A program made the translations under genes and the position numbers. Source: Asterochloris sp. CNOR1 (lineage: Eukaryota > Chlorophyta > Trebouxiophyceae > Trebouxiales > Trebouxiaceae). Taken from it: DNA of 64,000 bases. The DNA is taken from NCBI GenBank assembly GCA_963969365.1, contig OZ017748.1, positions 1,178,001 through 1,242,000 on the forward strand. The letters run 5' to 3'. Shown piece by piece: positions 1 to 55,801 of this stretch. Below the pieces are notes generated by a model. That model saw only the letters and a program-made list of their open reading frames with translations. It had not been told where the DNA came from and searched no databases. How positions within the stretch are numbered: the first letter of the stretch is position 1; every line of letters starts with the position of its first letter.

Positions 1-3000
1 CCCAGGGTCTCCATGAGGGTGGTTTCGTGCATCACGCTGGTGTCTCTGGCCCCCTCAGCCCCCCTGTCGCCAGCCCTGGCCATGTTGGCACCCAGGCGCC
101 ACCTGGCAGCGGCTGTCATGCCCCGCCCACTGCCACTCTTGGTCAGCAGCGTGGGCCCGCTGCCAGAACTGAAGACACTGCCGTCTCCAGAGGCGCGACT
201 GGGGCTTCCTGGTGCATGATCGTCAGGTTCGTCTGCAGGCATGCACATACGACATGGGCAAAGCAGCTGAAGCAAGGCTGGCAGCAGGGCCAGAGCTAGC
301 GTGGGGCAAATACACAAGCAGGCCAAGAGCTGCCCATGGGCTTGCCCCTGCAGGAGAGTGCAACGACAGCAGCAGCTGGGCAAGCTCTGGTCAGACATTC
401 TGTTGGCAGTGGCAGCTCATGAGCCACCACACAATGCCCACAAAACATGCCTGGGTTTGTTAGTGCATGTGTGTTGCCCAAAGCAGATGCTGCTGTTGCC
501 TTCAGAACTGCACTCCAGCCGGTGCTGCATGCACTGACAGCTCACCGTCCCGACTGCCCTTAGAGTTGTAGATGTTGTCGTGCGACATCATCCAATGGTT
601 GACCTGGCTGAAGTACTGAATAGCCGACATGGCCCCCACCCCCTGCAGCACAGTACTGGTATGGCTGGCTTCAACAGGTCAGTTCAGGCCAGAGCAGTTG
701 TGGGTGCCCAGTGAGCACCAGTACACTTAGGGTGTGCTGCGACGGCCAGCTATGCACCCTGCAAGCCCGCGTGTACAGCCGCTCACTCTTGTGGCCTGAG
801 TGAGCTTGAGGGCCGCTGTGCAGTTGTTGGCTTCCGTGAGAAGCCTGCACATTGCCACTTCAGAGGGATGACACCTGCCAACACTCATAAGCTGTGGAGC
901 TTCCCTGCAGGAAGCAGCCCACCCTACTTCTGCCGCTACCTAGGCCTGCCTGCCAGGCAGCAGCCCAACAAGGCAGCAGCCCACAAGGCAGCAGCCCAAC
1001 AAGGCAGCAGCCCAACAATGCAGCAGCCCAACTTACCCTGCCTGAGGCATGTTTACAGCCACCTGCAACTGGTGCACGCGCTGCGCTCAGTGATGGCCAC
1101 CTGCGCTGCGTGCCATGTCAACAGCTTGCAAGGGGCACCCCCTGACTCAGCACCTACACGCTGGGTAACATGCTGGGCCGGGTGGATCCCCGGGAATGGG
1201 CATGGGAACCACAAGTTCCAGTGCAGGGGCTCACCATGAGCCCCTCGGCCAGGGAGCGACCCAGCGGAGGGGTGCCTGCCACTGGACCTGGCGCATGAGG
1301 AGCTTGGAGTAGCGCAAGTGAAAGCTTGAAGGGAGCTGTGCGCCCCCAGAGCCAGGCAGGAGCCCACAGCAGCACTGCCACTATGCCTCACCAGGAACTG
1401 GCGCATGCGGCACTTGTGATATCATGAAATTGCCTGTACCACAGTCAGGCAACTCATAGGGGCACAAACGTTGCATTGTGATGCTTCGCCGCCATGACTC
1501 ACCAGGAACTGGCGCATGCGGCGCTTGTTGATGACCACTTGGCTTGCATGCTCATAGCTGCCCTCATCCTTGGTGTCTCGCAGCCACTTGTAGTCTGCCG
1601 TGACCTTCACAGAGCCCACCACCTTGTCGGAGTTGTGGAGGTCTGTCAGCTGCCACTGGTGATCATGGTTGCCCTGCGCAATCTCTGTGATGGGCACAAT
1701 CGCCTGCAGGCAGGGCCAGGTAGAGACGGGATCGCAGTCACACCCAGCCAGAGTGCGGCACAGCCATGATGTCCTGACCAAGCGGTGGCAGCACTGCCCC
1801 AGGGGTGACTCAGTAGCACCAGGTGCTGTACCCCTGCTGGCTGTGCACCCACGAGGATGTGCAAGTGGCGCCATCTGCCTGATCTGCTGCCTGCAGGGCT
1901 GTCACTAGCAACAGCGCGCAGCTGTAACAAGCCAAAGGCAGGCTGCGCCCACCTGGCCACAGTAAGGAGGCTTCCCGGGCAATCACTTGAGCTTGTGTCG
2001 CACCAGGCATATGCAATGAGGCTGCAAGAGACGGCGTGCCTGATCAAGGACATTCAAAATGAGCGAGCAGCTGCATCATGAGGTCCTACCTGACCATAGA
2101 AGGAGGCGTCCTTGTCGTCCTTGACCTTGATTAAAAACTCTGCATTGCTGTGCAGGATCACGAAGATGAAGATTGCATCCTCAAAGGTGGCGGCCTCCCC
2201 CTCCTTGTTGGAAGCATATTTCAGCTTTCCTCTGTCCCCCTCGCACCGCACCTTGACGTATGTGCTGGCCACTGCAATAAACGGCAGACGTGCACAATTG
2301 GCTTGTGTGCTATCAGGTGGCCAACGGTAGGCAGCTGCTGCATGCAAGTCCCTGCTTCCTATTGTAAGCAGGGCTCCGCACATGGATAAAGCACATCCCT
2401 GCGGACTGGCAGTGCAAAAGTGCAGGACACGTGCAGCACAAACAGGGGAAGACAGGACAGATTTTGCTGCCTGGGGCTGTTTGCGCCAGGTACTGCAGCC
2501 CGACCAGGTGAGCTAACCTCACCATGTTTGGTGCCTGTGACCTCCTGGATGCGCAGCGCCAGCTTCCCAATGAAAGGAGGGGAAGAGGAGTAGCGCACCT
2601 GCCACAATGAGCAAGGGCACCTCTCGTTGCAATCTGGAGGTATTTCGGTTTGCTGGGCATGTCAGCAGCATAACGACAATGGTAGAGGCAGGTTGACACA
2701 TGGGACAGCCACAGCGGAGACATCCTTTGGTTTGACAGACAGCTGGTTGTGGCTTTGCTGGGCTGTCCCTGTCAGCAGTATGGTACAACGGCTGTCGAGT
2801 CTGAAAGCCACATCAGCAGGCGCCAGACAGCTCACCTCAACGCCCATGCCTTGCAGAAGCCGCAAGTTGTCAAGCTGCGTCTTGGCTTCAGTCTCAGGAA
2901 AATTTTCCTGCAGAAATCCAGCCATTCTGAAGGGTGTGCTGCACAACCATTGTGGCGGTGCAAGTGATGGCTGAGCCCAGGAGGTTTACACAGGGCTGCA

Positions 3001-3571: not shown

Positions 3572-4155
3572 TGTGCTGTGAAAAAGAGAAAGGCACAGGC
3601 GTTGACTTGGTCGAAGCTTGAGAGCGAGAAGCGTGATTGTCTGGTATGTTTGCTGATCAATCGGGATGCAACACTCCAGACAGGAGGGGGACACCGTGCC
3701 CCTGCGACAGACTGGTTCGGCAAACTTCGAGGTTGAGCTCACAGAGCATACACCTCCCCAGGCTGATGTGGCCGACCGCTTTGTGTTAGACACAGCAGAG
3801 GTGTTTTGTCTGGCATCCATTGAACCATGACTGCTAACCCCAACACCGCCACACACACTGAACATGTTTGCTGCACCTCTGCATTGCTGATTGCAGGCTC
3901 CAGCTCACCTGCAAGGATTTTCGCAGCCACAGCGAAAGCTCCTGCTGTACACTGCAGCTGGCATCTGCACAGCAGGAATAAGTTTTCTTCTTGCCAAATG
4001 GCACATGCCGCTGTACATCTGGCTGGCCTTGGAGAAAACAGACTTAGGCAGTGCACAGTATCTGCTTGTTCAGGTCAGACTGCTGTCTGCAGGGAATAAG
4101 TGCATTCTGTGCCTCTTGTGTCATTCATGTGTGCAGCATTGATGGGCAGATTCCC

Positions 4156-7100
4156 ATGCCTCCCGCACTCCTCATGCCTCTTGCCTCGAGAACGCAGTCC
4201 AGAGCGCAGGAGCAGGATTTAGTCAAGGTGGAGGTGCAGAGGGAGCCAACTCAGGCGACCAGCCCCAAAGCTGGCATTGTACCGGTAGGCTTGACACCTG
4301 AAGAGCTGGTGGACGGTGCAACTGCATTGTGATGCTTCAAAAGTCCTTATCTGCGCTCATGCATGCAGACTGCAACTGGTGCTTGGCTGAGATGGTCTAG
4401 AATTCTGGCCACCCAATCAATCTGCTGCATTGCATTGCCTCCATGATGCAGAGTGGGCAGCAAGCTGCGCTGCGAATCGCAGAGATCAGGTGCTCCAGGT
4501 TCCTCTACTCCCCACGGCGCCGAACTTTTGTTGCTGTGCCAGCACTGCCCCCAGACTTTGACAGCCGCCTGCAGACCTGCTGTGCAGCCCTCCAGGGCAC
4601 CAGCAGGGGCAAGCTGATTGCAGCGCATTCATCAGCAGGCAGCAGATCCTCAGTCCCTGCTGACTTGGACAACCAGGATCGGGAGCAGGCTCTGGCTGTT
4701 TTTGGGCATAATGAGATGGTTCTGCCTGTGGCCAGCTTCCTCCAGCTACTGGTGGATGAGATGTGAGTCTGATGTGCAAAGCTTGATGCTGCTCCTTATG
4801 TGCCTGGTGAAACATACAGGATCAGGTGCGTCTTTGCAGAGCACTGATGTCATCTGCAGAGTCGTGCAAGGCCCCATGGGTCTTCCTGGTGACAACATTA
4901 CATGTCTGCAGCTGAAGCGTTTCGAAAGGCCTCAGCTGCAACTTGCCTGCATGGTCACTGCTGACTTCGAGCTATTTGCACCTGGAGGAGGCCTGCCACC
5001 CATGTCAAGGCTCGGTCAGAGCTTGCGCCTCTGCGCTGCAGGTTCAGACCATTCTATGTGTTCCAGGTGAGTTGAATGTCAGCTTGTGTGCCTGTCACCA
5101 CAGGGGCCATGGCCTTGCCCCTGCTTCATGACAAGGTGTCGGCCCTTTTGCACCTCATCTCCTTTCATGTGAGCTTGCCACTGCCTTGCAGTATGCAAGC
5201 GTCGCCGTCTGGAGCATCGAAGCCTACTGGACCTACTGCCTGGTCATTCTGGCAATCACAGCCTGCAGCGTGCTGGTCAATGTGCACAACAGCCACAGCA
5301 GCACGCAGCGCATGGCAGAGCTGGCGGCCTTTGGCTGCCAGGTACAGATGCCCCGAGCGGGACGCAAGATTAGCATGCCCAGCCAGGATTTGGTGCCAGG
5401 TGTGAGTGGATCAGCAGTTCCCTCTTCACAGCCTGCTTTGGAGAGGGCTCTGGCTGCTTTTGTGCCTCAGGACTGTCATGGGAGCTGCCCATGCTCGCCA
5501 TTTGACAGTATCTTTTGCATGCTGCATCAGAACCGGCAAGAAATTGTATGACAGACGTAGGATTGGCACATCTGCAGCGCGCAAAGATGCTTGACAGCCC
5601 TGTGCTGCTCAAGCTGATCCCAGAATGCATGACTGTGTTGGCCTGCAGGTGACCTGATCTGGCTCACGACTGGCATTGTCTCCTGTGACATAGTGCTTCT
5701 GCGGGGGGAGGCCATCGTGGATGAAAATATTTTGACTGGAGAGGCTGTGCCTGTCCGGAAGGGGGCGTACTGCAAGCCTGCTGGCACCAAGGGCTTTGAC
5801 CCAGCTGCTTCCAAAAGCTGCATGCTCTATGGCGGGACCACTGTCGCTCAGGTGGGCATGCAGCTTGACGAGGGCAGCTTAGGGTGCGCTCCAGGCAGAT
5901 GTGCTGGTGAATTGCTGCTGGGCAGGGAGTTGAACGTGTCTGCCTGCCTAGCGTGTACACAGCACAGAAGCTGCTGACCTTAACGACCCTCATCCACTCC
6001 TGGCGTTCCTCATGCTATGCATCTGCCCTGAGCTGTCAGGGTTTACAAGCCATCTGAGGGTTTGTCTCACGCTGGCAGGCGCGCGCTGAGGGCGGTGACC
6101 CCGGCCCGCTGGGCATGGTCTGCCACACACGCTTCCACACGGCCAAGGGGCAGCTGCTCACATCCATGCTACACCCCCAGGTGAGAGTGTGTGTTTGGCC
6201 CTGCACTTGGGGGGGGGGGGGGGGGGGGGGGGTTTGCAAAGCTCTGCATTCAGCTGACCACCTTCAAAGCATTCTGCAGATCTGAGCTGTGCTGCACCTG
6301 CAGGCCCATCACAACACATTCGCCACAGATGCACTGTGGTTCATAGCCATGATGCTGGGCCTGGGCCTCCTGGGCTTCATATGGAGCATGTCATCTTTTG
6401 CTGTGCATGGCGCTGGCTTTGGCACCCTGCTCCTTCGCTTCTTGGACTTGGGTACGACTATGCCGCCTGCACTGCTACCACTTCTGCCTGCCGCACCTGC
6501 TCAAATCTGCTGGCGCCGCTCCATGCTATGGGCAAGACATGCAGATGCGTCAGCTCTGCTCTTACAGAGGTGTCTCAATCTGCCTGCAGTCACCATTGCT
6601 GTGCCGCCTGCCCTCCCTGCCTGCCTGTCGGTGTCGGTGGCATTTGCAGTGGCCAGGCTGAGAGCTCAGGACATCTTTGTCTCCAGGCCTGACAAAATTA
6701 ATTATGCAGGCCAGATTGACATGGTGAGCCTCCTATGAGTCACTTTCTGATGCCTTTGGGCGCCTCCCTCCCCCTGAACTCCCATCTTGACAGGCTGGCA
6801 GCTGTACAGGTGGAACAGAGGACTGCGCATCCCTGCAGGTGTGCTTCGATAAGACCGGGACCCTCACTGAGCCTGGCCTGTCCCTCCAGGGGGTGGCCTC
6901 CACTGAGCACACTGCGGATGGCAGGTGCAAGCTGGGCCCAGTGCAGCCCCACCTTGCTGTGGCTGCACCTGCTCTGCAGCTGGTGGCAGCCACCTGTCAT
7001 GGCTTGGCAGAACTGGATGGGCAGCTGGTGGGCGATCCACTGGACCAGATCGTCTTTCAGGTAGGCTGCAGCCTCAATCCAAGACCTTGCGCCCTGATCC

Positions 7101-10100
7101 TGGCAGGATGTGCTTTGACATTTGCTGGGTATGGGCAGGGCATGCAGCACTGCAGTGCGCTGCGCGTGTTGCCCAGACAATGCAGGCTGCTGGGAGTCAG
7201 ATTGCCGCTCTGCTCGCAGGCCACAGGCTGGAGGCTGCAGGAGGTCACAGCACAGCCTCAGGCACAGTGCAGTCCTGCCCTAGCTTATGCAGTGGACCAG
7301 CATGCTCAAAGTGAGCAGCATGCTCCGATAATGGCATGCGTGCAAGCCCCTGGGCAGCAACACCATATAGTCCGCAGAGTCGACTTCTCCTCCGAGCTGC
7401 AGCGAGCAGCCTGTGTGGTGCGGTCCCCAGCAGAGGCAGGCATGGTGCACTGCACCGTCCAGCGTCTGGACCCAGGCACAGATAGCGGCGATGACAGCGA
7501 CGAGGCTGGGGAGCCCCTGCTGGCTGGCAGCAGCCACCCCCAGGGTGCTCCCCTGACCACATCAGCTCCCAGCCAGAAAGAGCAGCGAGCCGACCATAAC
7601 AGCAGCAGTCTCAAAGGCAGCACCTCTCAAGGGCCCCATGACGCTGCACAGCATGAGACTGCCAGAATATGCGTGTGCGTAAAGGGGGCGCCAGAGATTA
7701 TTTGCAGGCTGGTCACACCTGCCAGTGTGCCGGCCAATCTGGACCAGACTCTGCATCATCAGACGGCAGAGGGCCTTCGTGTCATCGCTCTGGCCAGCCG
7801 GCAGCTGCCGCCTGACACGACGGCAGCACAGGTGAGCTTGGAGTCTTGATGTGAGATTGTTTGCTGTCTGGCAGCTGCCGGCTGGGGTGTCAAGGAACCA
7901 CAGCTGACGTGCTGCAGGTGCAAAGCATGACGCTGCAGCAGCTGGAGGCCGGCCTGGAGTTTGCTGGCCTGGCAGTGCTGGCAAACCCCCTGAAGCACGA
8001 CACTGCCTCCACCATCCACCAGCTGCAGGCTGCAGCAGTGCGCGTTGTGATGGTGACAGGGGACCATGCCCAGACAGGCATCAGCGTGGCTCGGCAGTGC
8101 GGGATCCTGGCAGACGGGCGGCCAGTGGCAGTACTCTCAGGCAGGGAGGGCGCACCAGCACGTGCCTCCCTCAGCTGTGTGGTCGTGCAGCCAGATGGGC
8201 GGCGGGCAGAGCTCGAGCTGCCGGAGGTTGTCAAGCAGCTGGCTGAGGTGGGCGCTGCAGAGCTCTGTAGCTTTGTCAAGGCAGTGTTTCCAGGCAGCAG
8301 AGGTGGGGGAGGGCAGCAGCTTTCCCCAGCTGCGTGGGTGTACAACCATATGCGTGGCTGGTAGGCCAGATCTCGTCAGCCAGCCGGGGACAGGCAGTGC
8401 TCATGGCTTGCTCCAAGACATGGCAGTCACTCGTTGCTGCAGGGTTCCCAGGATTGTAGAGGCTGAGCACCTCTGCACAACTTGCATGTGCTCTGGACAC
8501 GCCTGCCACTGCAGTCCTGCTTGATGTCTGGCTCCCTAATGGCAGGCCTGCGCATGCCTTCACCGCTGCATACCCTAGGCAGCAGGAGGCCCATCCTGCA
8601 GATGTCTGCATGAGGAGCTCCCTTTCAGAAAGCTGTGCCAACGTTTGCCCTTGCCTGCAGGGCGAAATCGGTTGCGCAGTGACGGGCAAGGGCTTTGCAG
8701 CCCTGCAGGCCACAGCAGGCGTGGACTCCCTGCATGCAGTCCTGCAGCATGCCGCGGTCTTTGCTCGCATGGCCCCTGCAGACAAGCAGCGGCTGGTGGA
8801 GCTGCTGGGGGAGGGCTGCAGCACCGAGGGCGGGCAGGCCACCCCAGGCCTGCAGCATTTTGTGGCCTTTTGTGGGGACGGCTCCAATGACGTGGCAGCA
8901 CTCAAGGTGGGCATGCTGCTGAGGCAGTGGCTCCTTCTCTCATATGCTCAGGCAGGGTACACCCACCTGCTGGTCAGGTGGGCACAGCACTGGGGACAGC
9001 AACAACTGTGGCACTGTGCGGCCTTGTGTGACATGGCAGCGCCCAAGCAAGTGCCCTGTTGTGAGCAAGGGCCTGCATTCCTTGACGATCTGCCTTGCCT
9101 GCTGGCAGTGCTGACTGTGCTGCACGCACGAGCTCTGTATTGCATTGTTGCTGGGCATTGGTTCTGGGCCACTGACATGGCATCTCAGCACGGCAAGGAC
9201 AACCCAGGGCAGCTTGATGCTATCATCGTTGTGTCTCCTTTGCCTGAAAGGCAAGGGGGACAGCAAGAACAGAGCGCGACCCACCTGACTCTGCAGGCCG
9301 CCCATGTAGGAGTTTCCCTGTGTGAGGCAGAAGCCTCTGTGGCTGCCCCGCTGACCAGCCGGCGGCCCAGCATCACCTGCATGCTGCACGTCCTGAGGGA
9401 GGGGCGTGGCACCATCATCACCACTTTCAGTCTGTTCCAGTTCATCATCGTCTATGCAATTGTTCAAGTCCTGGCAGCCAACATCATGTTGTCCTTTGGC
9501 CTCATCATAGGGAACAACCAGTATCTGATCCAGGTAAGGTATCCTGATGGGAGCTGAGCAGGCTGTGCCTGCTGGCCTGCTTGCTGCGCTGTGGCTCCTG
9601 TGAAGGTCACATGCATGTTTGCATGTTTCCTTCAGGCATGCTCCTGTATGGTCACTGAATGTGCCTGCAGGACCTTTTGTACACGACTGTGCTGGCAGCA
9701 GCCATGGGGCTCACGGAGCCTGCTGCTGATCTCAGCAACAAAGGCCCCCAGGCTCGACTGTTTGCCCTCCCTGTCCTCCTTCCTGTTGCTGCCCAGCTTG
9801 TTGTTCTTGCTTGTTTCCAAGTGAGGGGTTGCACTTCGCTTGGCACGCTGTTGCAGGCCACATGATGCGATTCAGGTGGCTATTCTGCCTTGTCCGCCTT
9901 GCTTGTTCTAAGCAGTTGGTGCCAATCTTTTCAACAGGGTGTCCAGCTGCTGCCATGATTTAGGGTGCCAAGGCGCTCTGAACAAGTGACACTCGCTTAT
10001 GCTGCAGTTTACAAGCATTGCAGTTCTGGTTCGACAGCCTTGGTATAATGGCTATGAGCGCCAAGGAAGAGCTTTTGCACCAAGGCCTACACCAGAGAGC

Positions 10101-10515: not shown

Positions 10516-10748
10516 TGCCTTTCAGCAGCATCCTCGAATGAACAAGCCTCATCAGGCACATCTTGCAGCACATGTGTTCATGTCTTGGCACCCTCCTCAC
10601 CCTGTAATGTAAAAGCAAGCCTGGCAAACTCATCACGCTGTGCGGTGCCACCTCCCTCAGGCTTGAAGGAGTCTCAGCTCATGGGCTTGCCCTGACCCAG
10701 CCTCAAAGGCCCCTCCCATCTGCTGGTGCTGCCTGTCCATGCTGGGCT

Positions 10749-11541: not shown

Positions 11542-11559
11542 GTTGAGCTGTCCTCGAGC

Positions 11560-19200: not shown

Positions 19201-22200
19201 AACACAAGGTGCTGACTGCTCCTGGGGGCACGGGTGTCATGCGACATGCCTAAGAGAAGCTTTGGTGATGTGCTGCAGGCAGCACTGGGGTGGAGGCACA
19301 TGCCGCCCAGTCTCAGGCGTCTGTGGAGTTGACTAGTTTGCCAAACCAGCTTAAGGCTAGGGACAGAGCTCAAGGTAGGCACCAGCTTCACAGCCTCTCA
19401 TGCCAGTGCAACCTCCAATCTCAGAGGGGATCCACAGGGCTGGAAGCCAGCGTCAAGGCTTCAGGCAGGCATCTGCTCCACCTTGTTGGTAGCAAGTTGG
19501 ACTGGAGTAGCTGGGCTTCCCCAATTTAGTGTGGGAACAGCTGCTGCGCCAAGCAGCACGCTGTGGTTGAGGGCACCAAGAACAACACAATTGTCTAGCT
19601 TGAAAGAAACACTATGATGAGCATCCCAGCTCCTCGGTCCCACAGTCGAGCCTCAGAGCAGAGTCTCTCTGCCCCCTTTTAATATGTCAACTGCTTGCAT
19701 GCCCTGCAGTGCACTGGAGCCAGCAACACTCATGCCAGTGACCAGTGCCGCACACTGCCAGCCCCTCGGGAGTCCTAGTCTCACACATCCTGTCACGGGC
19801 TGAGTGTCATCAACACAGGTGGCCTGTAATGCATGATGCCAGCCCACTCAGCACGTCAGTGTTTACCTGTCCTGCAGTGTGCTGGAGCCAGCGGCACCAG
19901 CACCTGTGGCCAGTGCGTTTCAACGCAAACCCCCTGCGCATACCTGAACTGGACGTCGAGGACATTGGCGACCTGCCTCAGGTTGCACGTCCAGCCCAAG
20001 AGGGGCAGGCAGATGACGCTGCTGGCCCTGCAGAGGGGCAGTCATCGGGCCCCAAGCCTCCCGCGCTCATATACTTTGAGGCGCTGGCCCGGGCATGGGA
20101 ATGTGACCTTGCAGAGGTGTTCGCAGAGCTGGACAATGGCTCTGCAGCCTGGGCCTTCAAGATGTTTGCTACCTGCGCCATATTCCACACAACAGTGAGT
20201 GGCCTGTGCCTCATCTGCCTGTGTCATGTCTGAGAGAACATGAAGCATGTGGTGCCCTGAAGCATGTGGGGCCTTCCTGGTGTTGCAGGGTGCATCTGGT
20301 GTGAATCAAAGGTCAATGCTGCCATTCAATGGCCTGTGCATGTAGTTTCTTTCTTGGGAGTTGTGGAAGGGTGTCAGCTGTGGAAGGGTGTCAGCCGTAA
20401 TGGTCAGTGCCCGTGCCAGATGATGGGTTTGCAGCCTGGACGCTGTTTCCAGCAAATGTGCCCTGGCAGGTCGTGAGTGGGCTTCCTGTACAGTTCCTGG
20501 GGCATGCCCTCACAGGGCCCTGCCCTTTGAGGATGCTGGTTGGCAAAGCCTGAGCTGTTCTTGCAGTGCTCCAGCAACTCCCTCTGTGGCTGCTGTGGGC
20601 CGCGCATGTTACTCAAAATTGACACTGCCGGCAGGATTGCTTGACCTGTCGCCATGCACGGCCTGCTGCTGCAGGTGCACACATGTCTGTTTGCCTCAAG
20701 TCTGCCTCAAGGAGCGTTTGCCAGGCGTCAGCAGCTGGCAACCTGCAGCAGCTGACCCCTGCACCTGCCGCCTGCAGATATTCAAACTGTATAATTGGAG
20801 GAAGTTGTGCCTTGCAGCCCGGGCGCCAGACATCACCAGCCTTGAGGCTGGTGACCAGGCGAGATACCTGGTGCAGCCCCTGCACATGTTGACAGTTAGG
20901 TATCAGCCAAGCGTGTGGGGCTGGGGTGGAGCAGGAGAGGTGCAGCTCGTGGCCCGGGCGGTGTCCTTGGGGCTGCAGTGGGGGCATTACAACATGGTGA
21001 GCAGCATCCAAGTGACTGATGTGAGAGCCAGATGTGGACATGATTCGTGTCTTGGGCAGTGTTCCTTGGGCTGCAGTTCGCACCGCATGACATAGTAAAC
21101 AGCGCTGCCAGCACGGTGTATCTTGTGCTGTGTTGTTCTGTGTGTGAGAAAGCGGGCCTCTCCTGTGCTCCAGGACATGCAATGCAGGCACTCAAATTGT
21201 GGTGCAGTCCTGAAACACAAAGCATAGGCCTGGGCAGTGACCCAAGGGTTGCAGGGGGGCCCATGTGATGTGATGGGAATCTTTCCTGGTAGCTTCGTCA
21301 GGGACAGGGATGAGATCAGTCTGAGGAACGTCCCTGGGGCTACTGCGGGGGAAGTACAACAGGAGCAATCTGACATGCAAAGCTTCGTTTGTGACAACAG
21401 AGACAAATAGGGTTCAGGCGGCTGCACTTCCAGGTGCGCATCAAGTGAAAGGCGGCCAACACAGCACATGTGCATCCCTTGGAGCCAGGAAGCCATGCTG
21501 TGCATGCACAGAACAGAAGGGACTGTCCACTGTGGGGTGCTTTGTGTTGAGCTCAATGGTCAGTCAGCGTCAGGGCAGTCTGCGCACATGCCACCAGCTG
21601 GCTGTCCCCAAGCACTCACGTGGCGGTCTGTGAGAGCAGTTGCAGCCAGGAGGTCCCTGCCAGTGGTCCTCCAGGCCGGTGGCCTTGCTGCCTCAGCATC
21701 ACACAGGGCCAGCTGATGCTGCTGCAGGCAGCCAGCTTGATGACCAAGGGTGCAGTCTGCCTGCCTGGCAATCACTGTGCTCGCTGCCCCCAATGTTGCC
21801 CCACGATGCCACCCTGCTAAGTGGCACCCTCTTAGGGCCTGCCACTCACATTCATGGGTTCCAGGACAGAGGGCCTGCTGATGTCACTGCAGGCAGCAGA
21901 GATGATGATCAAGTACACAGGCTACCTTGGTGTCCAGGCAAACAAGCGGTACCTCACTCACAATGCCAAGACACAGTTGAGCCAGCATGCGCCCTGCTGC
22001 ATGTAAACGGTCAAGGACGCCGCCATCAGGTGTTGCGCAACTTAGAGCAGGTGAGCAGCATGTCTTGCTTTGTTTGTGAGATGGCAGCTCATCCCGCTGC
22101 GGGACTCTTCTTGATGGACTGCTCTCTACACAAAATATCCATGTTAAATCACAAATGTACCTCGCAGGGGCTCTAAGATAATGGGCAGCTCCTGATGTTT

Positions 22201-28200: not shown

Positions 28201-29920
28201 GCGAGGGGCACCTCCTCACACCGGAGGGGAACAGGTTGGTGGCATGCTCTGCACCAAATGAAAACAGCATGCAGCCACCGTCAGGACATGCACTCTGGGC
28301 TGACGCAGAGTACAAGTCAATTTACCTTCATGGAGCCGCTTTTACTGGGCAGATGCTGCTGCTGATCTACATGTCCTGCTCTGACAGTCAGCCCGTGCCA
28401 TCAATTGTGGCCTGTGCTGCCAAAGCGCCCTGACGAAGTGCGCTTTGCGTTGCTTGTCCTCTGCAAAGGACACGCTGTGCCCCAAGAAAGGCTCTTTCTC
28501 CTTTGGCTACCAGTCATCACTGCCATGGTTGTCCCTGCAGGCACTGCTCAAGCCACAGGGGCCACAATGGAGGCGCACGCCTTCCCAGCTAAACCCTTTG
28601 CAGTGCCCTTTCCTGGCCACATCTGCCCAGGCAGCTCCTCAAGCTCAGAGGGTGGGGTGACCTGCTGTCTAAGCTGCTGCCAGGGCAGCTGCCTGCCCCG
28701 GCCCACCTCGTGAAACTGTCTCATAGCCTCTGGATGCAGCTCACCATGACTGGTCTGCTGCCAACCTGTATCGTGTGTCCTCAGGATGCATCACCTCATC
28801 ATTCAATTCTGCTGCTGAAACGTCTCTACATTTCAGCTGTGGTGTCTGCCAGCTCCCACCCTGTCATCTGAAAGGTCCTGAATGCTGCAGCAGGGCTGGG
28901 ACATGGTGTTGCACATTTCTGTTGGTTCCCTTGACAGCTGTATATTTTGACGATCGCTGTGTCTGCAGGTGTAGCATGCCAGGCAACCTCTGAGATGTAC
29001 AGCACCCTCGCCTCAAGCAGCACTGCGCTGCCTGTCCATGGCACCAGCAACGGCACCTTTCCTGCGAGCGCCCCCGCCGTGGTGGCACCAGAGGTGCATG
29101 ACCAAGCCATCATGGGGAGGTTAGCAGCACCCGCGCCCAGTCACTCTGCTGCAGAGGGTGAGGCTGTGATTGGAGAGCAGCCATGTCCAGTGTGAATGCT
29201 TGCTGATCTGAGGCCCGCGCCTGCCACATGTAGGTCGACCGCGGCTGTGCATCCTGGCAGTGCTCTCTAGCGACCAGGTCACTGTTGCATCAGCTGTGCA
29301 ATGACTAGATCTGCCCGGTGTCTCTGCAGGTGGATTTCATCCCCTGGCCGCCTCTGACACATTTGGCGCCCTGCGAGCAGCATCCCTCAACGTGCAGGCA
29401 TCTCAGGTGCATGCCCAGGCCCAGGCCACTGTGGAGAGGGACGTAGCAGCTGCTGCCTGCCACCCTGTGCCGAACGGTGAGCCAAACGTGAACGCAGCTA
29501 GGGCCACATTGTTGCTGAGCAGTGTTTGCTGGCTCAAAGCCCCAACTGCCATAGGTGGGGCCCTATGGCTGCAGCACAGCAGGTGCACCCATGCAGTGCT
29601 CTCCCACGGCCTGACCGCTCTCACATCAGGCAGGCAGGCGCAAAGCTGTCTATCATGTCTTCAGGGGCCAATGCTGAGTCTGCTCTGCCCACCAGCACAA
29701 TGCTGCCAGCAGCTGTTCTGCCTGGTGCAATGCCCGCATCCCTGGCAAATCCACAATCGGTGGCTGACCTGGTCCTCAAGGAGCTGCACATGGCTGCCAG
29801 CTCACACCCTGCTGAGGAGGCCTCACCCAGCCCCTCCGCTGTCTCAGGTGAGTCCGCAGTATGTCAACGCCAGGCAGCACAAGCGCCATGCAGCAAGCGT
29901 CATGCAGAAGCACAAGCTGA
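16280..29920 (+). CDS. Large protein with membrane-like helices and C-terminal FG-containing modules (nucleoporin-like)
   Basis: Many exons read rightward; the start is not fixed. The N-terminal half has hydrophobic segments: about 16832-16919 (LWCIARVALIFLLLQVIRL) and 18783-18992 (spliced TIKALVLGVCFAFSVEIVG). An acidic stretch follows at 18349-18619. Further exons are at 19877-20193, 20777-20998, 21893-22010, 22722-22910, 23378-23563, 24045-24311 and 24735-24940. Exon 25404-25832 joins in phase to a run of symmetric phase-1 exons: 26096-26270, 26465-26740, about 26906-26941, 27822-28233, 28543-28651, 28969-29158, 29331-29476 and 29661-29848. These encode Ser/Ala/Gly/Pro-rich sequence with FG dipeptides (SPFGG, NLFGR, GGFGS, NLFGS, SAFGS, GPFGS, TFGAL). 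FG repeats bind transport receptors in nuclear pores; membrane helices plus an FG tail is the plan of animal POM121. Identity is inferred, and the terminal exon (stop at 29918-29920) is tentative. A TTTT run at 22770-22773 breaks the frame of one exon. Confidence 0.5.
19702..19918. repeat. Duplicated splice acceptor plus exon start (two copies, 168 bp apart)
   Basis: 19702-19750 and 19870-19918 are diverged copies of one segment. Both carry CTGCAGTG, then (A/G)CTGGAGCCAGC, then a GCCAGTG box. The right copy is the acceptor and start of the coding exon that continues to 20193. The left copy carries an equivalent CTGCAG acceptor but leads into no supported exon. Confidence 0.75.
20961..21367. 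repeat. Exon end repeated two or three times in the downstream intron
   Basis: The end of exon 20777-20998 with its donor (CCTTGGGGCTGCAGTGGGGG, then CATTACAACATGGTGAGCAGC) is echoed at 21060-21104 (CCTTGGGCTGCAGT, then GCATGACATAGTAAACAGC) and more weakly at 21329-21367 (CCTGGGGCTACTGCGGGGG, then AAGTACAACAGGAGCA). The later copies have lost the donor dinucleotide or the reading frame. Read as diverged tandem duplicates of an exon-intron boundary. Confidence 0.6.
21713..21914. repeat. Duplicated acceptor plus exon start (two copies, 165 bp apart)
   Basis: 21878-21914 (CTGATGTCACTGCAGGCAGC, then AGAGATGATGATCAAG) is the acceptor and start of an exon that codes for EMMIKYTGYLGVQANKRYL. 21713-21749 (CTGATGCTGCTGCAGGCAGC, then CAGCTTGATGACCAAG) is an upstream diverged copy with no open exon behind it. 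Confidence 0.7.
27744..27776 (+). repeat. Three exact copies of an 11-bp unit
   Basis: TTGCACCTGCT is repeated three times without a break at 27744-27754, 27755-27765 and 27766-27776. It lies upstream of the phase-1 exon that starts at 27822, within the intron, and follows an A-rich run near 27720. It may act as part of the polypyrimidine and branch region; no stronger claim is possible. Confidence 0.9.
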
Positions 29921-36300: not shown

Positions 36301-39300
36301 GCGCACAGTTGTCCATTGTTTGACTGGTTGCAGCAGGAGCTCTTGGCAGCCTTCTTGCAGCCTGGCCTCAGGGAGCTCTGCTGCAGCCCTCTCAGCAGCG
36401 TGCTGCACCCGGCTGCTGGGCACCCGCTGACGGTGGGCTCTTGAGTGTGCAGGGAGGACCTGTCATGGCAGGAGCTGCAGCCCCACCTGCTCCCCCTGGA
36501 GCCAGGCACTTCTAATCCTTCTGCCAGCCTGGGGGACACCTGTGGGGAGGCTGACCAGCAGGATGCAGAGGGTGAGACTTGCTGACGGCAGCCTTGCAAG
36601 GCTGCGAGCTGCCTCTCAGCCTGTCTCCCTCGCCTTGCTTTGCAGCTGCGTGGTCAGAGCTCCCTGCGGGGCGCATGCTTGTTGCGCTGTCCAGGTGTTT
36701 ACCAGCCACAGCAAGCCCCACAGCTCCATGCACTGCTGTGCTTGAAGTCATTATTGACATGTGGTGGCTGCGCCTGTGGTGGCACTCTCTGGCTGAATGT
36801 CTAACAACATGTGCCTGCCCACAGAGGCTGAGGTTCACAGCATGCTCTGTCACCCACCTGCACAGCCTGTTTCCTGCACCACAGGGGCGCCACTCCCATC
36901 ACTGGTCTCGCCTGTGCGCGGCCAAGCTGCCCCGTCGCCCAGTGCAGTCCCCTCCCGCCGGCTGCCCTGCTGATGAGGCTTGCCCCACCCGGTGCAGGGT
37001 GGAGGCAGTCCCAGGGAGAGGGGCCCGCTCTGGGCCTGCCAAGCACCACGCCTCCCCGCTGACTGCGCGTGCTCCAGCTTTGCTTGCAGGGGCCAAGCTG
37101 TGGCCAGGGCGAGGAGCCAGGTGCCAGCTCACAGACTGCCTGCACAGCCCCGCCCTGCACTGACCCCCCTCCTCGCCTTCACTTTGGTGTAGGGCCCGAT
37201 GCCGTGCAGCACCATTGTGAGGGTGCAGGCACCAGCTTCGAGCCTCCAAGCTGCGGTGCACCATGGGAGCTTACCGCAGACGCCCTGCTTGTGACTTTGC
37301 TTGATTGGTTCCCTGCTGTGCAGGGCTCAGTGACAGCCATTCCCAGGGTGGGGGCCCAGACACCAGCTCTCGAGGCGGCAAGCGGCAGCGCACCTCCTGG
37401 GGCTCTGGAAAGAGGGCGGCACAGCCCCTGGAGGCCATGCGGCCCCTGGTGCTGCTCAGCAGCATGCACTCCAGCGAGCAGGCGAAATGCACCAAGGCGC
37501 TGGCCAAGCTGGGCATCCCGTGCCTGTCCCATGCAGACTGCCAGAGGTGACCCACTGGGTGCCAGGAGTGGGTGACTCTGTGCATGCTGGGCCTATTGTG
37601 CTGACAGCCTGCCAGGGGCCAGCGTGAGGATATCGAGTGGGTGCAGCTAGTGCCTGTCCATGCAGACTGTAAGGTGTGTATCAGTCTGTACAGTGGCTGT
37701 AGGTGTGAATGTATCGCATGCCTGCCCTCTGCACAGCGCTGCGTGTATCAGGAGTAGGGCAATGCAGTGCCTGTCCCATATGGGGGTGAGTGAAAGTTTG
37801 CATGCATCTAGTGCCTGTATATGCAGACACATGTGCTGGCTTGAGTCAGAGTGGCAGCAGGCGCAGTTCCTCAGGAAAGTTCCATGCAGTGCCTGTCCCA
37901 GGCAGAATGCCAGAGGCTGCTTCAGGGGTGCATGCAGTGCAGGTCTCGGGCGCAGGGACTCCTGTGTGCCGTGCCTTTCCCACAAAGCTGCTGAAGTTGA
38001 GCACTGACATCAGCCCTGGCTACGCATAACGGTGGCTGAGGCCAGTCAACAGCTGCTGTGCTGATCCACTGAGTCAAGCGTACCCCTGCGCACCCACAGG
38101 TGGCGGGACAGGACCACGCACGTGGTCATGCCTTCACTCGGGCGCACGCTGAAGGCTCTGGCAGGCATGGCAGCTGGGCGGTGGCTGGTCAGCACAAAGT
38201 TTGTTGACGACTGCAAGGAGGCGCAGGGCCTGGCTGAGCCGGTGAGCTGTTGAGTTGTGCTGATGCGTGTGTGTGGCACCTTCTTGAAGTCATTGGAGGT
38301 GCAGAGGCTGGCTGAGTCAGGCAAGGGCTGGCTGAGCTGGTGCTTCTGGGCTGTGCTGTTGCTGCTGGGGAGCTTGCAATCCCCTGGCTACGCACAACAG
38401 AGGCAGTGCAGATGGCTTTTTTGTGTGTAGCCAGCAACCTTGAGCATGTTGCGCTGTCTCAGTGGCCAAGCATGGCATGCTGCACTTTCGCACGCTCTGC
38501 TGTGGACACCTACTTGCACCTGTGTTGTTGTCCCAGCATGCTGCTGCGTGTGTGTGGGCCATCAGCCTGGGTGGACGCGCAGCAGCTAAGCAGCTGCTGA
38601 GCACTGCCTCAAGGCCACCTGCTACCCCTGCACAGACCTGCTGCTTCTGTCATGTTCCTTTCATGGCAGCCCTGCCTCTTATCTGCAGCCAAGTCACTGC
38701 CAGCTGTGTGCAGGGCCCACGTGAGCTGGGCAGCAGGGCCTGCAAGGCGGACATGGCAGAGGGCGCGCCCAGGCACTGGCGGCAGCGGTATGAGGCCACA
38801 GGAGAAGGAGCCTTTGTTGGCCTGCAGGTGATGGTACCTGCCATTGCACAATGCTGTGCGGGGCTTGTGAAGGGACCTCATCTGCCACACCGCGTCATGC
38901 AGAGCCGGCTGCTGACAGCCCGATGGCCAGCTGGTCACTCCATGGTTGCCCCTCAGGCACCCGTGTGCGATGCGACTGAGCTCTCCTGTGCTGCTGCAGT
39001 TTGTCTTGTTTGGCAAGTGCGACGAGCCAGGTCCAGATCATCAGTAAGCATCGCCACTGGCAAGTCCTTGCTGCTGCCATGCTCTGCTGTTGCCTTAGCT
39101 TTGCTGTTGCCATGGCTTTGCGTTTGCCAGCCGTGAAGGGCCAAGCATGAGCTTGGACTGAGCCTAGCCTGGCCTGAGCTAAACTGCGCAAACATTGATG
39201 TTGCTGTGCAGGGATCTGCGGACCATCATAGAGGCTGGCGGTGGCGCAGTGACCAGATGTGACAAAGAAATGTCCACCGCACTGACGACTCTCATCAGGC

Positions 39301-46299: not shown

Positions 46300-46378
46300 A
46301 TGTCTCAGAGCGCGTTGAAGGAGCTGGATTTTACATATAAGGCGGGAGCTGTATTTGTCTTCTAAGGACCCAGAGCTT

Positions 46379-48387: not shown

Positions 48388-51300
48388 ATGAAGCTATATG
48401 GAGCTGTTGCATTGCTCCTGCTCTCCATTGGCACAGCGGCAGGTGAGAAGTACCTTCACAAGGCTGGCATGCTCAGCAGCTGGATATGGCCCCCACGAAA
48501 TCTCCCATGATCCTCAATCTGAAAAGCTCACATCAGCCCCAGTCAAGGGTCTGTAGCCAGCAGCCTTGCAGATCTTGTGCATGCAGTGTGTGCCATGCAA
48601 GTCTGTCAAGGCCTGACCCCTGACGCGTTGCAGGTGCTGGCAGAGGCCTTCTGCAGACCCCTTCTGGAGCAGTGCTGCCATGTGCAACTACGCTGGCCGC
48701 AGACCTGAAGAACAGTGAGCTTGCACTCGAGGGGGTCTTGGATGGGTGGTTGTTGGCTCTGACATGTGTCTCTGCAGCTGGGCACAGCTGGACATGCAAC
48801 AAACCTGTTCTCAGAGGCCTGAAGACAAATGGGCTGCATTCAGCAACTGACCACTTGGCGAGTGCTGCCCAATCCCACGCTATATGCCCCTCTTCACTGA
48901 TTTCTGGGCGACCTGCTTGTAGATGAAATTGTGCAGCCCATCTCTTGGGCTGCAAAGCCAACACAGCCGCACGTCCAGTCATGCTGACAAGATTGTTTTG
49001 AATTGGCAGATGACTTCCTGAAGTTCAGCCAGGATGTGGCAGCCCTGCCTGCTGCCCAGCAGGGGCCATGCATCACAGCAGCCTTCACGGCCTCCACCCA
49101 GATCCAGGGAACCACGCCACAGGCTGCTGCCAACACAGCCGCCCAGGCTGCCAAGGCAAACCCAGCTGTGGCCCAGGCTGCATCCACAGCTCTATCTCAG
49201 GCCTCAGGCCAGACCATAACCCCGCAAGACGTGAGTAGTTCTAAGACACGTAGCCAGAGCAGCTGCCGATTGCCAGCGCTTCATGTCATCTTGGCCTGTG
49301 AGCTGTCCTGGCGCTGACTGATAGTGGCAAGGCTGCATGTCAGCTCATTTTCAGCTTTGGAGTACAGGTGCAGGAACGGTTCGAAATATGCATTTTCAAA
49401 TCTGGCCTCTGATTTCCTTTAAGTGTTCTGCAGCTGACAGGCGGGAACACTGCCGCTGTGGCAAATGCTGTTGCCTCCAGCACAGGTGGCAGTGTCACCT
49501 CGGTGGCCAACGCCAACTCAGGGGTAAGCTTTTCATTCTGCATCAGAGAGTTGCGAGTGCTGACATGCATGCCACAGCTGCCAGGGTCGCCAGTGGCTGC
49601 CTTCATCTTTGGTATAAGCAAGTGTGCCCCTGAAGCAGGCCTGCTTTGCAGGCTATTGTGCCCTATAGGCTAGCTAGCACCGTGCAGGACTGCTCAAACT
49701 TACGCTGCTCTCCTGCAGGCCTTGTCCCAGGTCAACAATAATGTGGCCAATGCCACAGCCCAGGTCAGGCTGCTATGCTCCTGAGTTTGCTGATGTGTTT
49801 GTCAGAGCAAGGCATCTGACTTTATGATTGCTGTCTTGTAGGCCATCGCAGCGGTGGGCATATCTTCCAGGGGCTTCAATGCATCAGCTGCCTCCGCACT
49901 GTAGCTCATGACTTGTTGTACCATGACTTGCTGCACTCATGCTGCCTGATGTCACTTCTTGAGCTGCCTGTGCCTTTGCCTGCAGGTCCAGGGTGGCGGA
50001 AATGCACAGGCTGCTGCCCAGGCTGCTGCCACCGCCATTTCGACTGTGAGTGCTTTCCACGTTGCACAATGGCCGGAGGCTGCGCTGCTGAGTGTCCCAC
50101 ATGCATGTGTGTTAGCTCATTGATGCACTTCCGTGAACGCAGGCCACCGCAACCGCCTTTGCTCAGACCTCTGCCAGCGTGAACACCCAGGGCTCAGGCA
50201 CTGGGACTGCGTCAGCCACGGCCTCGGCCGTGGCTGTGGCCAAGGTGCGCTGCTGGTGACACGAGCTGAAGCCTCCATGGAAAGCTGCAATGTGTATCTT
50301 ACTGACAGGGCTGCTGGCTTCTGCAGGCTGTTGCCACTGCCATAGCAAACGCATTTGCGGCTGCACTGGGGCCCAATGCTCAGGCCACCGCAACCGCTAA
50401 AGCACAGGCTACAGACACCGCCTTTGCGCAGGCCATCGCCCAGGCCAGCTCACAAGCCTCTGCATCCAATGGTGGGGTCTCTTGCTGATGCAGTGTTGCA
50501 CAGCACAAATCTCCCAAGCTGCACAGCTCTGGAGGACTGAGTCACTCTGAGTGCGTATGTCAGGTCTTCACCCCGCGCACCTGACTCTCTGCAGGTGGGA
50601 ATGCCCAGGCCCAATCCACAGCCATTGCTCAGGCCGTTGCCACTGCCACAGCTACAGCACTGGCCGCTGCCCTGGCCCAGGTGACACCCACAGCTGGCTC
50701 AGGATGAGGTGCTGCCCACTCCCTACCAAGAGCACCATCGACAATATGCCTCTTGAGCCTCCTTTTGCGTATCTTTTGTGCTGCCCACCTTGAACGCGTG
50801 GCTGAAAGCTCTGATCAAGACCCCTCCTCGACACAAGCACATATTAGCAGTACCATGCCTGTTTTGTAAATCAGTATTAAGACAAGATGATTGCGAAGTC
50901 ATCAGTACAAGTACAATCAGATCTACCTTGCATGTCCCAATCTGTCATCTCTGGCTTGCTCAGCACCATAGGGGTGCTTGTTTGCATTGGGGCTCAAGTG
51001 TGGGCAACGGCCAGAGAGATTCAAACAAAGGGATGGGCCATTAGCAAGGTATAGTGATACTGTGGATGCTTGACAATTGATTCTGATGTGCGCATGCATT
51101 TCCACCTGCTGCTGAGGCAGTTCCTGCACTGGCCTCTCAGGTAGAAACCTCAACAACATCTTCTGCTCTGCAAGGTAGGTGCTGCCCTGTGCCAACATAT
51201 CAAGGGGCGGCCTCTCAGTCAGACCATGACAGCAGTGCAGGTTGTGGCTGCTGCCCATGACGTTCCTGCTTGGCTGCTCCTTCATCTGCTGGCGCCTACC

Positions 51301-51590: not shown

Positions 51591-51599
51591 ATGCTTTAT

Positions 51600-53303: not shown

Positions 53304-53426
53304 TGCCCAGGTCAACAACAGGATACTTGAGTGGGTCAAACGTTTGCAGATATCTTGTGCTGCATCGCAAAGCTGCATCTACCAGCAGAGAGGTAGCCCA
53401 GCACGCCACTGGACAAAGGCAGCACC
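53304..53426. promoter_or_regulatory. 123-bp divergent promoter region
   Basis: The ATG codons of the leftward 2OG oxygenase (53303) and the rightward plastid protein (53427) are 123 bp apart, the tightest head-to-head spacing in the window. The two genes must share or overlap core promoters. No TATA box is evident. Confidence 0.5.
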
Positions 53427-55801
53427 ATGAGGACCATCGCCCCCTGCTCGCAGTGTGGGTGCCTGCAGCGGCATTTGCAGCAGAGATTGGCACACCAGAG
53501 CACCCCCACAACACGGCTGCTGCCATGCCCAGCCAGGCAGAGGAGACATCAACATAAGAGGCAAGCCGTCGCTGCAGAAGCAGCAGCCCCTGCTGGCAAG
53601 TTCATCTCTCAGGCAGAGATCCCGGCCTTCATCCCTCGCAAGGAGTTTTTGGAACAGCTTGCATCCTGGGCCACCGTTCAGGTTGACACAGAGGGCCCCC
53701 GCAAGTTTGGCCTCCCCATGAAGGTGAGAATGTGCACAGAGCTGTCCACTTCAGAGATTGGCTGCACCTGCTCTTTCAGCAGTGAGAGGCACACTTCCAG
53801 CACGCGAATTGGTGGTTGTTCCAGATCTGGCGGGCTGCATGCAGTCTGCTGCTCAAGGTGAGACGGCTGCAACCAGTGGTCACTGTGGAGCGCTGCAGCA
53901 GGTCCAGCCCTGAACGTTCAGGGCGCTCTGCTCTCCGCAGCTAATGGCTGCCATCACCCAGCTGAGTGAAGTTTACTGCTGTCCGTTATCGTTCAGATGG
54001 TGCTGCAAGAGCTTGAGCTTCCAGGGTTTCCCTGCCTTCTTCCCCTGGTTCCTGCCTTCCTCCCTCTGTATTGGGGTCACTGCAACAGACGCTGCAGCAT
54101 GGTCATACTGAGAGTTGATTTGAGTCTCCAGGGTACCTTGCCCTCTGCATCTTGCTGCCTGGCCTATGCCCTGCTTCAAGCATCTGCCTCAATGCAGGAG
54201 ACATTGGTCTTGGATGCTCTGCAATGCCCTGCTCTCCAACCTACGATCTGCACCAAGCACCTGCTGTGATGCAGGTGACAATGATCAGCCGGGACGAGAG
54301 CCCAGGTTTCAAGGTCTCCTTTGTGCGGGATGGCCAGACACTGACAGACATCAGTGTCGCATTTGATGGCGAGATGGCCGTCAAGTCTGAATGGGTGGGC
54401 AGGGGCCCCGAAGGCTTCCCACAGATGGAGGGCAACGTGACCCAAGTCAGGGGCAAGCACCTCATCATCAGGTGGGGCCCAACAGTGCTGGCCAGGTGAC
54501 AGCACTCTGTTGAGGGCAGGGCTGTGCTGATGAAATCGCCCAGCTGTTGGCTGACACTTAACTGGAGTGATGGGGACCAGGACCAAATGTGGGAGCAGCG
54601 GCTGGTCTTGGGGGGAAGCCCAAATCATGCGTTGCTCAGGGTGTGCCTAGCTCATCATCCAGCGTCATCAGCAGAGGCGCTACTGGGGTGGCTGTGGTCA
54701 CTGCTGGGTTCCTGGGGTACTGATTGGAGGGTGATGGGGACTAGAACACGAGGGAAGCACCTCATCATCACATGGGACCTGGAATGCTTCAACATTGTGT
54801 GGGGCTGGCTTCTGGGTGTGGGCGTGCTGCTTTGCTGTTGTACCACTGGCTTGACCAGCAGGTCAAGTGGATTCCCGATGCGATCCCAGCGAGAGCAACC
54901 CTGGATATCAGGTACACTCAGCAGAGCATATCTGGGAAACAGGGGACTCTTTGCAGGATGAGCACGGGCCACGGCTGGAAAAGCAGCCACCCGCGTAGCA
55001 GGGAGCGGTCCTTGGTGTCCTGTGTGCTCCTGCCCCTGACTGCATGCAGCGGCATGCGGCTCTTTGGCTGAAGGTGCATTTCCAGCCCAGGCTGCAGTGC
55101 GCTGGCGCTCTGTGTCAAGGTGGGGCCCTGCTGCCAAAGCTATGAGCAGGGCATTGTGTCAGCGCATGCATCAAGCCACTTCTTGAGGAGGAGTGCTGAC
55201 ACCTGTCACAGCCAGCTGCACGTAGAACGTAGGGGCGTTTCTGATTCCAAACCCAATTGGCTGCACTCTTGTCAGGAGCACAGTGTGAGGGTTGCTGTAC
55301 CAGCCAACTGGGGAGGGTCCAGCCGTGCTGCTGTGGCTAGGGAAGCGCGGCATTGGTGGCCATCAGAGGTCACGAAACCAGGCATTCAGCTCGCATCTGG
55401 ACAGCCTGCTGGCCAATACACTCCTTGCTGGGCACTGTCATAAAACACAGGGTGCGGCTTGTTTCATGTGATCCCTGCCTGCAAGTTGTTGCTGCTGAGC
55501 TGGTGGTGGTGCTCAGAGTGCAGTGGGTGATGGTGTTGCGGCTTGCAGGGGCCCATGCATAGCTTGTGGCCGAGACAGCCAACAGCAGGCGGTCAGGCAG
55601 AAACTGCTGCCTGTGATGCACATATCATGCTGTGGCGCCTGCCAGGATGCCGACGCCTCTTGTCTGAACCGCAGGAAGGATGACGACAACAAGATCGACG
55701 ATGACACGAGAGGAGCAGTGAGGATCTTCTGCAATGAGCTTGCAGCGGCCATCAACAAGTACTATGCCTTTGGCAACTGTTTCGTGGACGATGCTCAGTA
55801 G
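53427..55801 (+). CDS. Conserved plastid-targeted protein of unknown function
   Basis: Three exons, 53427-53723, 54275-54471 and 55675-55801, join in phase to 206 residues. The first about 55 residues are rich in Arg, Gln, Ser and Ala with almost no acidic residues, like a chloroplast transit peptide. The mature part begins FISQAEIPAFIPRKEFLEQL and has FGLPMK, GFKVSFVRDGQTLTD, EWVGRGPEGFP and GKHLIIRK, then a C-terminal helix ending INKYYAFGNCFVDDAQ. The joins across both introns read naturally, and I have seen this pattern as a single-copy protein in plants and algae (from memory) but cannot name a function. The second intron is long (1203 nt) and contains degenerate copies of the exon end that precedes it. 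Divergent from the 2OG oxygenase. Confidence 0.75.
54449..54777. repeat. Exon-end copy and a second duplicated box in a 1.2-kb intron
   Basis: The exon end and donor at 54449-54477 (GGGCAAGCACCTCATCATCA then GGTGGGG) recur at 54750-54777 (GGGAAGCACCTCATCATCA then CATGGGA), where the donor GT is lost. Between them a second pair is found: ACTGGAGTGATGGGGACCAG at 54560 and ATTGGAGGGTGATGGGGACT at 54722. The intron interior thus seems built partly from local duplications. Confidence 0.7.

Follow-up and report, generated by a model that had tools for sequence, protein, structure and literature searches.

Splice-boundary copies in adjoining introns of the alga Asterochloris sp. CNOR1, a probable by-product of short tandem duplication

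Gao and Lynch are said to have found that internal gene duplication often gives rise to novel introns. Such duplications are commonly observed (PMC4974935, citing Gao & Lynch 2009 PNAS, a study also cited in PMC3296678). Intron gain by tandem duplication of AGGT goes back to Rogers 1989, with ATP2A1 as an instance (Hellsten 2011; both as described in PMC4974935). That paper itself deals with a new intron in the potato RdRp gene, which was shown through comparison with relatives and has transcriptome support, and in which the duplicated sequence crosses an intron–exon boundary; it also describes an 83-bp tandem duplication inside an intron that left the gene structure unaltered (PMC4974935). 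In Drosophila, 5 of 31 near intron pairs were ascribed to within-frame tandem duplication (PMC2891723). The present study concerns a window of 64,000 nt from the alga Asterochloris sp. CNOR1 (contig OZ017748.1, nt 1,178,001–1,242,000; genome of 56.4 Mb in 21 contigs), in which introns carry diverged copies of the exon–intron boundary at their own border. Among the literature matches listed, no title or abstract opening reports copies of this kind throughout the genome of an alga.

The algal case resembles internal gene duplication in being a tandem duplication of gene segments, but differs from what Gao and Lynch reportedly found in its units of about 100 nt, in an outcome that is seemingly a longer intron, and in the absence of a signature of intron birth from well-supported introns. 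With AGGT intron gain it shares a tandem duplication that includes splice-site sequence, whereas the unit described for that route (PMC4974935) is exonic and leaves its copies at opposite ends of the new intron; the algal unit straddles a boundary that already exists. The 83-bp intronic duplication of potato is much like the alga's common case, and a boundary-crossing unit is common to both. The new potato intron is backed by relatives and a transcriptome (PMC4974935), whereas for such splice-site use the alga offers candidates from predicted gene models. The Drosophila pairs were chosen for novel intron positions, and passages of PMC2891723 contain no survey of boundary copies within introns.

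Boundary copies in the window and across the genome

Genes were modelled with a self-trained hidden Markov model (HMM), which was given no coordinates from the original prediction, an earlier reading of the window by letters alone. The HMM learned the donor CAG/GTGAG and the acceptor CTGCAG/G (slash at the exon edge), and predicted 530 introns on 264 kb and 638 on 314 kb. Acceptors of the predicted introns are very uniform, with T and G at -5 and -4 in 94–95% (TGCAG/G), a figure that HMM self-training may sharpen. The sample outside the window comprised 25 stretches of 10 kb (250 kb) from the same genome; L-numbers such as L019 denote these stretches. Short exons and those with a coding score below 6 or 8 were excluded from the counts of boundary copies, the exon reach, the comparison with simulation and the AG retention, and the same filter applies to the filtered rows of the offset-class and birth-signature tests.

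The six splice boundaries named earlier were all recovered by the HMM (donors 1503 on the minus strand, 20996, 37546 and 54471; acceptors 19878 and 21893). Each host intron was resampled 2,000 times as a first-order Markov sequence, and seven of the ten named copy pairs were unmatched in every resampling: 1498/1387 (35/37 identical), 20961/21329, 37519/37649, 37519/37889, 54449/54750, 19870/19702 and 21878/21713. The other three are weak individually, namely 20961/21060 (76/2000; a longer alignment of this pair has 58/83 identities outside the GT), 37519/37767 (73/2000) and 37519/37810 (65/2000). Copies are present at all of the named boundaries, as claimed, but they were said to occupy at least six introns and the pairs sit in five, counting intron 20997–21892 once. 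This intron carries both donor and acceptor copies; the HMM divides it with mini-exons at 21077–21115 and 21728–21749, both of which coincide with copies and were treated as false. At least three further introns of the window (1704–2089, 38242–38713 and 63365–63519) also contain copies.

To count copies more widely, each well-supported exon boundary was searched for in its own intron, with the boundaries of other genes in the same sequence as the null. On the first 264 kb (143 introns, score 16), 11 donors and 15 acceptors had a copy, against 0.2 and 0.4 expected. These controls bear directly on chance similarity arising from the splice-site consensus, a reading favoured by the weakness of three of the ten named pairs taken alone: donors and acceptors of other genes share that consensus and still reach the score at only those low rates. 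The mismatched boundaries refute consensus similarity as the source, and we give it practically no credence.

Outside the window the targets were annotation-free (450 nt on the intron side, score >=15), and a copy lay in the adjoining 450 nt for 23 of 253 donors and for 29 of 251 acceptors, where 1.2 and 2.2 respectively were expected. About one splice boundary in ten (52/504 outside the window, 3.4 expected) therefore has a readable copy in the adjoining intron, and the excess that had been forecast for the genome at large is real: the observation is correct and widespread. The window is ordinary for its genome: of its 64 donors, 7 or 5 were copied, depending on which of two boundary query windows was used, and of its 65 acceptors, 4 were. 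Deeper in the exon, windows 26–60 nt from the boundary were copied in 4/253 cases on the donor side (1.6 expected) and 12/251 on the acceptor side (1.4 expected), and windows 46–80 nt away in 3/253 (1.2 expected) and 7/251 (1.9 expected), so the copy rate falls into the exon more steeply at donors than at acceptors. The corresponding counts for the first 264 kb, 37–75 nt from the boundary, were 2/140 and 2/141 against 0.5 and 0.3 expected.

Local direct repeats and the lengthening of introns

Every offset from 18 to 1,199 nt was scanned for local repeats over 264 kb. At a score of >=18 there were 273 direct repeats, compared with 3.0 in third-order Markov sequence. Their density peaks at offsets of about 60–140 nt and is low past about 500 nt; for pairs inside introns the offset has its median at 107 nt and its quartiles at 66 and 164 nt. 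As a method control, which says nothing of the alga's rank among eukaryotes, 50 kb of Escherichia coli K-12 yielded 3 pairs at score 18, where the alga has 48.6 in the same length. The duplication rate looks high. Redundant pairs (same stretch, starts <=60 nt apart, offsets within 15) were collapsed before classes and offsets were counted, and in the list of best pairs they were merged at starts <=80 nt apart.

Among the 30 best pairs (offset 40–600, identity >=0.86), 18 abut or overlap and five more lie <=17 nt apart, a head-to-tail geometry. In two of them, L010 678–803/801–926 and L019 6918–7038/7037–7157, the copies overlap by 2–3 nt, which could be microhomology. The youngest cases are L023 860–1618, L020 7791–8167, L019 6918–7157 and, in the window, 1377–1532. 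Direct pairs spanning <=500 nt outnumber inverted ones by 245:5 at score 18 and by 343:21 at score 16; local inverted duplication or opposite-strand template switching was rejected as a main source. Offsets of pairs within one exon are multiples of three in 17 of 17 cases, a result to which the model itself contributes, since it keeps every predicted exon open, and those of intron pairs are spread 41/35/43 over the three classes. Relative to uniform placement there are 93 intron–intron pairs (105 expected), 87 edge–intron pairs (44 expected), 40 exon–intron pairs (58 expected) and 22 edge–edge pairs (8.6 expected), the last excess being due in part to copies that the HMM takes for exons. The original prediction had named, as an outcome that would speak against it, introns present in distant relatives together with copies equally common in mid-intron; the second half of this holds, the intron-internal share being close to that of uniform placement. 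Taken together, the geometry, orientation and placement of the repeats are most simply read as the work of a process that acts on DNA regardless of gene structure, with selection sorting the products afterwards.

We consider it likely that near-neutral short tandem duplication, blind to gene structure, lengthens the introns, and that boundary copies are a by-product. Frequent head-to-tail duplications of about 100 nt would strike the genome irrespective of genes. Those that change the mRNA would be removed by selection and exon-internal ones kept only if in frame, while intron-internal ones would be free. A unit straddling a splice site would be nearly free as well, because splicing at the outer donor or acceptor would still yield the old mRNA, with the other copy of the boundary left inside the intron. 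Each such event would lengthen the intron by one unit, and the copy would then decay. Since selection holds the exon half of the source, the recognisable remnant would be an exon end plus donor downstream, or an acceptor plus exon start upstream. With straddling units tolerated and exon-internal ones not, exon sequence would appear in introns mainly alongside its boundary, and boundary copies would remain recognisable for longer than intron–intron copies because exon sequence changes slowly. The molecular step would be slippage of a strand, or staggered nicks repaired by end joining. Most likely this is ordinary tandem duplication of a kind already known in eukaryote genes. Tandem duplication as the cause was part of the earlier proposal and is borne out by the direct orientation and the mostly head-to-tail young pairs; the range of copy ages is likewise upheld.

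Blind duplication was simulated on 151 introns, with mRNA-altering events rejected, balancing deletions, and unit sizes taken from the intron-internal pairs; the duplication rate was set by hand after a first simulation, not fitted. Simulated boundary rates were 6.5% for donors and 7.3% for acceptors, and the real ones under the same rules were 15/151 and 13/151. For intron-internal windows the same settings gave 4.0–5.8% simulated and 2.6–7.3% real.

Several results weigh against blind duplication as a full account, beginning with the exon side of the copies. Real copies reach a median of 36 nt (donor) and 34 nt (acceptor) into the exon, against 54 and 58 nt simulated, and the share reaching >=50 nt is 0.40/0.20 real against 0.54/0.59 simulated. 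In a larger set without the two-sided filter the real medians are 41 (donor) and 37 nt (acceptor); the figures for this larger set omit off-boundary alignments, which fall short of the boundary or hold <12 nt of exon (1/28 donors, 5/32 acceptors). Exon windows at 26–60 nt were copied in 2/151 and 4/151 cases, compared with 4.8% and 4.4% in the simulation with balancing deletions, a shortfall of about two- to fourfold, and boundary windows lie above simulation (17/151 versus 7.0% at donors, 11/151 versus 6.2% at acceptors). The first simulation matched the boundary peak and overshot the deep exon, with 5.3% at 26–60 nt from donors versus the 0.2% excess seen. This overshoot could be due in part to the gene finder calling long copies exons; the shortfall persisted with annotation-free targets and was smaller on the acceptor side. 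Selection against longer pseudo-exons, or a boundary-aware process, are possible reasons for the short reach.

Further difficulties concern the copies themselves and the gene models. Of 26 copied acceptors, 22 still have their AG where exon identity would predict 15.6; for the dinucleotide of copied donors the figures are 18 of 26 and 16.2. Simulated ratios of retention to expectation were 0.98 for donors and 1.07 for acceptors, and the surplus at acceptors is no more than suggestive. Larger gaps are present in seven of the 30 best pairs, which are not head-to-tail, and the pair 1377/1488 (89% identity) has 67 nt between its copies and is not cleanly of that geometry. Some edges have several short, scattered copies, namely 37519, 1498 (1377–1420 and 1284–1306) and L019 7326; re-duplication of already duplicated stretches is proposed here and would suffice. 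Edge–intron offsets are uneven over the three classes (30/20/42). Predicted intergenic DNA holds 2 pairs against 12.3 expected; no conclusion is drawn from this, given the shortness of these stretches and the promoters and untranslated regions that they may include. The gene models, finally, are HMM predictions only, and the frame test is partly circular.

The same boundary peak, short exon reach and scattered copies of one edge are what a boundary-aware process would leave, one in which spliceosome-bound RNA, reverse transcription or breaks at exon edges copy those edges into introns. Against such a process, the same kind of duplication has an intron share close to uniform placement, and the blind model already nears the boundary rate; we regard it as quite improbable. 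It is unlikely, though somewhat less so, that exon edges are preferred sources or survivors on top of a blind background, through splicing-coupled mutation or through selection for copied acceptors as reserve sites. If true, that preference would explain the short exon reach, the multiple scattered copies and the retention of AG.

In the L019 example (6918–7833) the exon end at 7326 seems, by eye, to recur in four or more places along the intron that follows, and on its acceptor side the exon has a clean tandem duplication of 119 nt.

Intron birth, extra splice sites and dispersed families

It had been put forward that these introns arose when segments containing AG-GT were duplicated in tandem within exons, and this is the right type of mutation for intron birth. 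The trace expected of a birth is a copy of the upstream exon end at the 3' end of the intron, paired at the 5' end with one of the downstream exon start, at an offset equal to the intron length. At a score of >=12 this signature was found in 0 of 180 well-supported introns (0.3 expected) and in 0 of 242 under a looser filter (0.6 expected). For ideal births free of indels, power at score 14 was 1.0 at a divergence K of 0.3 and 0.92 at K = 0.5, and only 0.22 at K = 0.8, so older births would be missed. Copy offsets are, besides, mostly unrelated to intron length. When all 636 introns are taken, weak models included, four have the signature at >=14 against 0.1 expected. Three of them (L001 7965–8096, L026 2029–2107 and L026 7575–7701) follow a predicted exon of 1–3 nt and look like duplicated acceptors called exons; they are, in our view, gene-finder artefacts. 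The fourth, L019 7327–7701, has its upstream exon end copied exactly at the 3' end (21/23 exon bases), followed by a weak downstream exon of 39 nt and score 2.1, and makes the strongest individual candidate for a splice site that came from a boundary copy. The new-intron origin is not borne out, and we hold it very unlikely that these introns were created in this way. What had been noticed was most likely introns growing longer, not introns being born.

A different possibility follows the potato RdRp pattern, in which both copies of an acceptor or a donor are used and a small extra exon lies between them. Consecutive predicted acceptors are alike at score >=18 in 20 of 578 pairs (2.7 expected), and consecutive donors in 7 of 578 (1.9 expected). 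The retained AG of copied acceptors (22/26) and the surplus of edge–edge pairs (22 versus 8.6) agree with this pattern, and the middle exon scores above 6 in three cases: window 28969–29157 (6.5), L023 9359–9451 (6.3) and, for donors, L016 8915–8998 (8.2). For the acceptor pairs, however, 18 of 20 middle exons score <4 and 13 have a length of <=50 nt, which is what a gene finder that mistakes copies for exons would produce. As an account of the boundary copies this outcome is distinctly unlikely.

Introners, or another dispersed family carrying boundary sequence, would produce matches between introns of different genes. At E<1e-5 only 11 such pairs were found among 615 introns, all in four stretches (L002, L013, L017 and L027); introners are rejected for this sample, with no evidence in their favour, and a dispersed carrier is exceedingly improbable. 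A genome search for paralogues by which to date the intron at 905–1502, limited to the best candidates, gave two matches, both of them exons of its own gene.

Some of the between-gene matches are of note in themselves. Predicted introns of L017 starting at 7265 and 9324 (also 7779 and 9064) lie on opposite strands and are 100% identical across 469 and 215 nt, which indicates an inverted duplication, perhaps a mobile element. The L002 intron from 3667 and the L027 intron from 7664, on different contigs, are 99.4% identical across 641 nt; a match of 95% over 154 nt also involves the L017 intron from 265. These three are probably a repeat family called as genes.

Window features and meaning for intron growth

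The sources and copies in the window are collected in Table 1, which includes the three introns found in addition to those named earlier.

Table 1. Boundary sources and their copies in the 64,000-nt window. Details give identical/aligned positions and, out of 2000, the resampled introns matching the pair; D4, D9 and D14 are repeat families.
Feature	Position (nt)	Strand	Details
Source, exon end + donor	1488–1532	-	exon ends 1503
Recent copy of 1488–1532, in intron 905–1502	1377–1420	-	GT intact; 35/37; 0/2000
Older third copy of the 1488–1532 boundary	1284–1306	-	20/23; 3/2000
Source, exon end + donor of intron 1704–2089 (additional)	2085–2129	-	
Intronic copy of 2085–2129	1948–1995	-	36/48
Source, acceptor + exon start	19863–19897	+	exon from 19878
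Upstream copy of acceptor + exon start, intron 19375–19877	19695–19729	+	28/35; 0/2000
Source, exon end + donor	20961–21004	+	exon ends 20996
Decayed downstream copy of 20961–21004	21059–21102	+	31/43; 76/2000, weak alone; overlaps mini-exon 21077–21115
Second downstream copy of 20961–21004	21330–21367	+	32/38; 0/2000
Source, acceptor + exon start	21866–21927	+	exon from 21893
Upstream acceptor copy of 21866–21927	21701–21762	+	39/47; 0/2000; family D4; overlaps mini-exon 21728–21749
Source, exon end + donor, BRCT gene	37514–37547	+	exon ends 37546
Downstream copy of 37514–37547	37643–37676	+	30/34; 0/2000
Possible downstream copy of 37514–37547	37758–37779	+	19/21; 73/2000, weak alone
Possible downstream copy of 37514–37547	37804–37828	+	21/25; 65/2000, weak alone; 88% to copy at 37642 (D14)
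Downstream copy of 37514–37547	37883–37916	+	30/34; 0/2000; family D9
Source, exon end + donor of intron 38242–38713 (additional)	38217–38277	+	
Downstream copy of 38217–38277	38295–38362	+	49/68
Source, exon end + donor	54452–54479	+	exon ends 54471
Downstream copy of 54452–54479	54752–54779	+	GT lost; 24/28; 0/2000
Source, acceptor + exon start of intron 63365–63519 (additional)	63287–63396	-	
Acceptor copy of 63287–63396, upstream in gene	63467–63577	-	overlaps predicted 24-nt exon

Protein domains were assigned to several of the gene models. A Pfam BRCT match (PF16770, 27.1 bits, barely above the cut-off of 27) bridges the exon junction 37546/38100. In the genome as a whole, the chlorophyll a/b-binding family gave 31 exon-by-exon matches, which mark a photosynthetic eukaryote, probably a green alga. 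The model starting at 53427 has RNase PH and dUTPase domains (Pfam) and is perhaps two genes merged; two models of the window have no Pfam match. A gene for a P5B-type ATPase occupies nt 4174–9865, its best solved match being the polyamine transporter ATP13A2 (E 5.5e-52, first 441 residues). The intron that holds the boundary copy at 1377–1420 also contains a 16-nt tandem array of about five copies (nt 955–1032). At 50140–50680, repeats of families D1 and D2, in places spaced by 24 nt, lie in a predicted gene encoding an Ala/Gln/Thr-rich tract, and are perhaps the same duplication process in coding sequence.

The growth of introns in small, gene-dense genomes is seldom visible event by event. 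About a tenth of the boundaries sampled in Asterochloris sp. CNOR1 have a readable copy, so that one could measure directly how often short tandem duplications arise, how large they are and what becomes of them. The often-cited link from short tandem duplication to new introns is testable where the raw material is plentiful, as it is in this sample, which contains no convincing newborn intron. The consecutive look-alike acceptors are the places where an outcome of the potato type might be sought.

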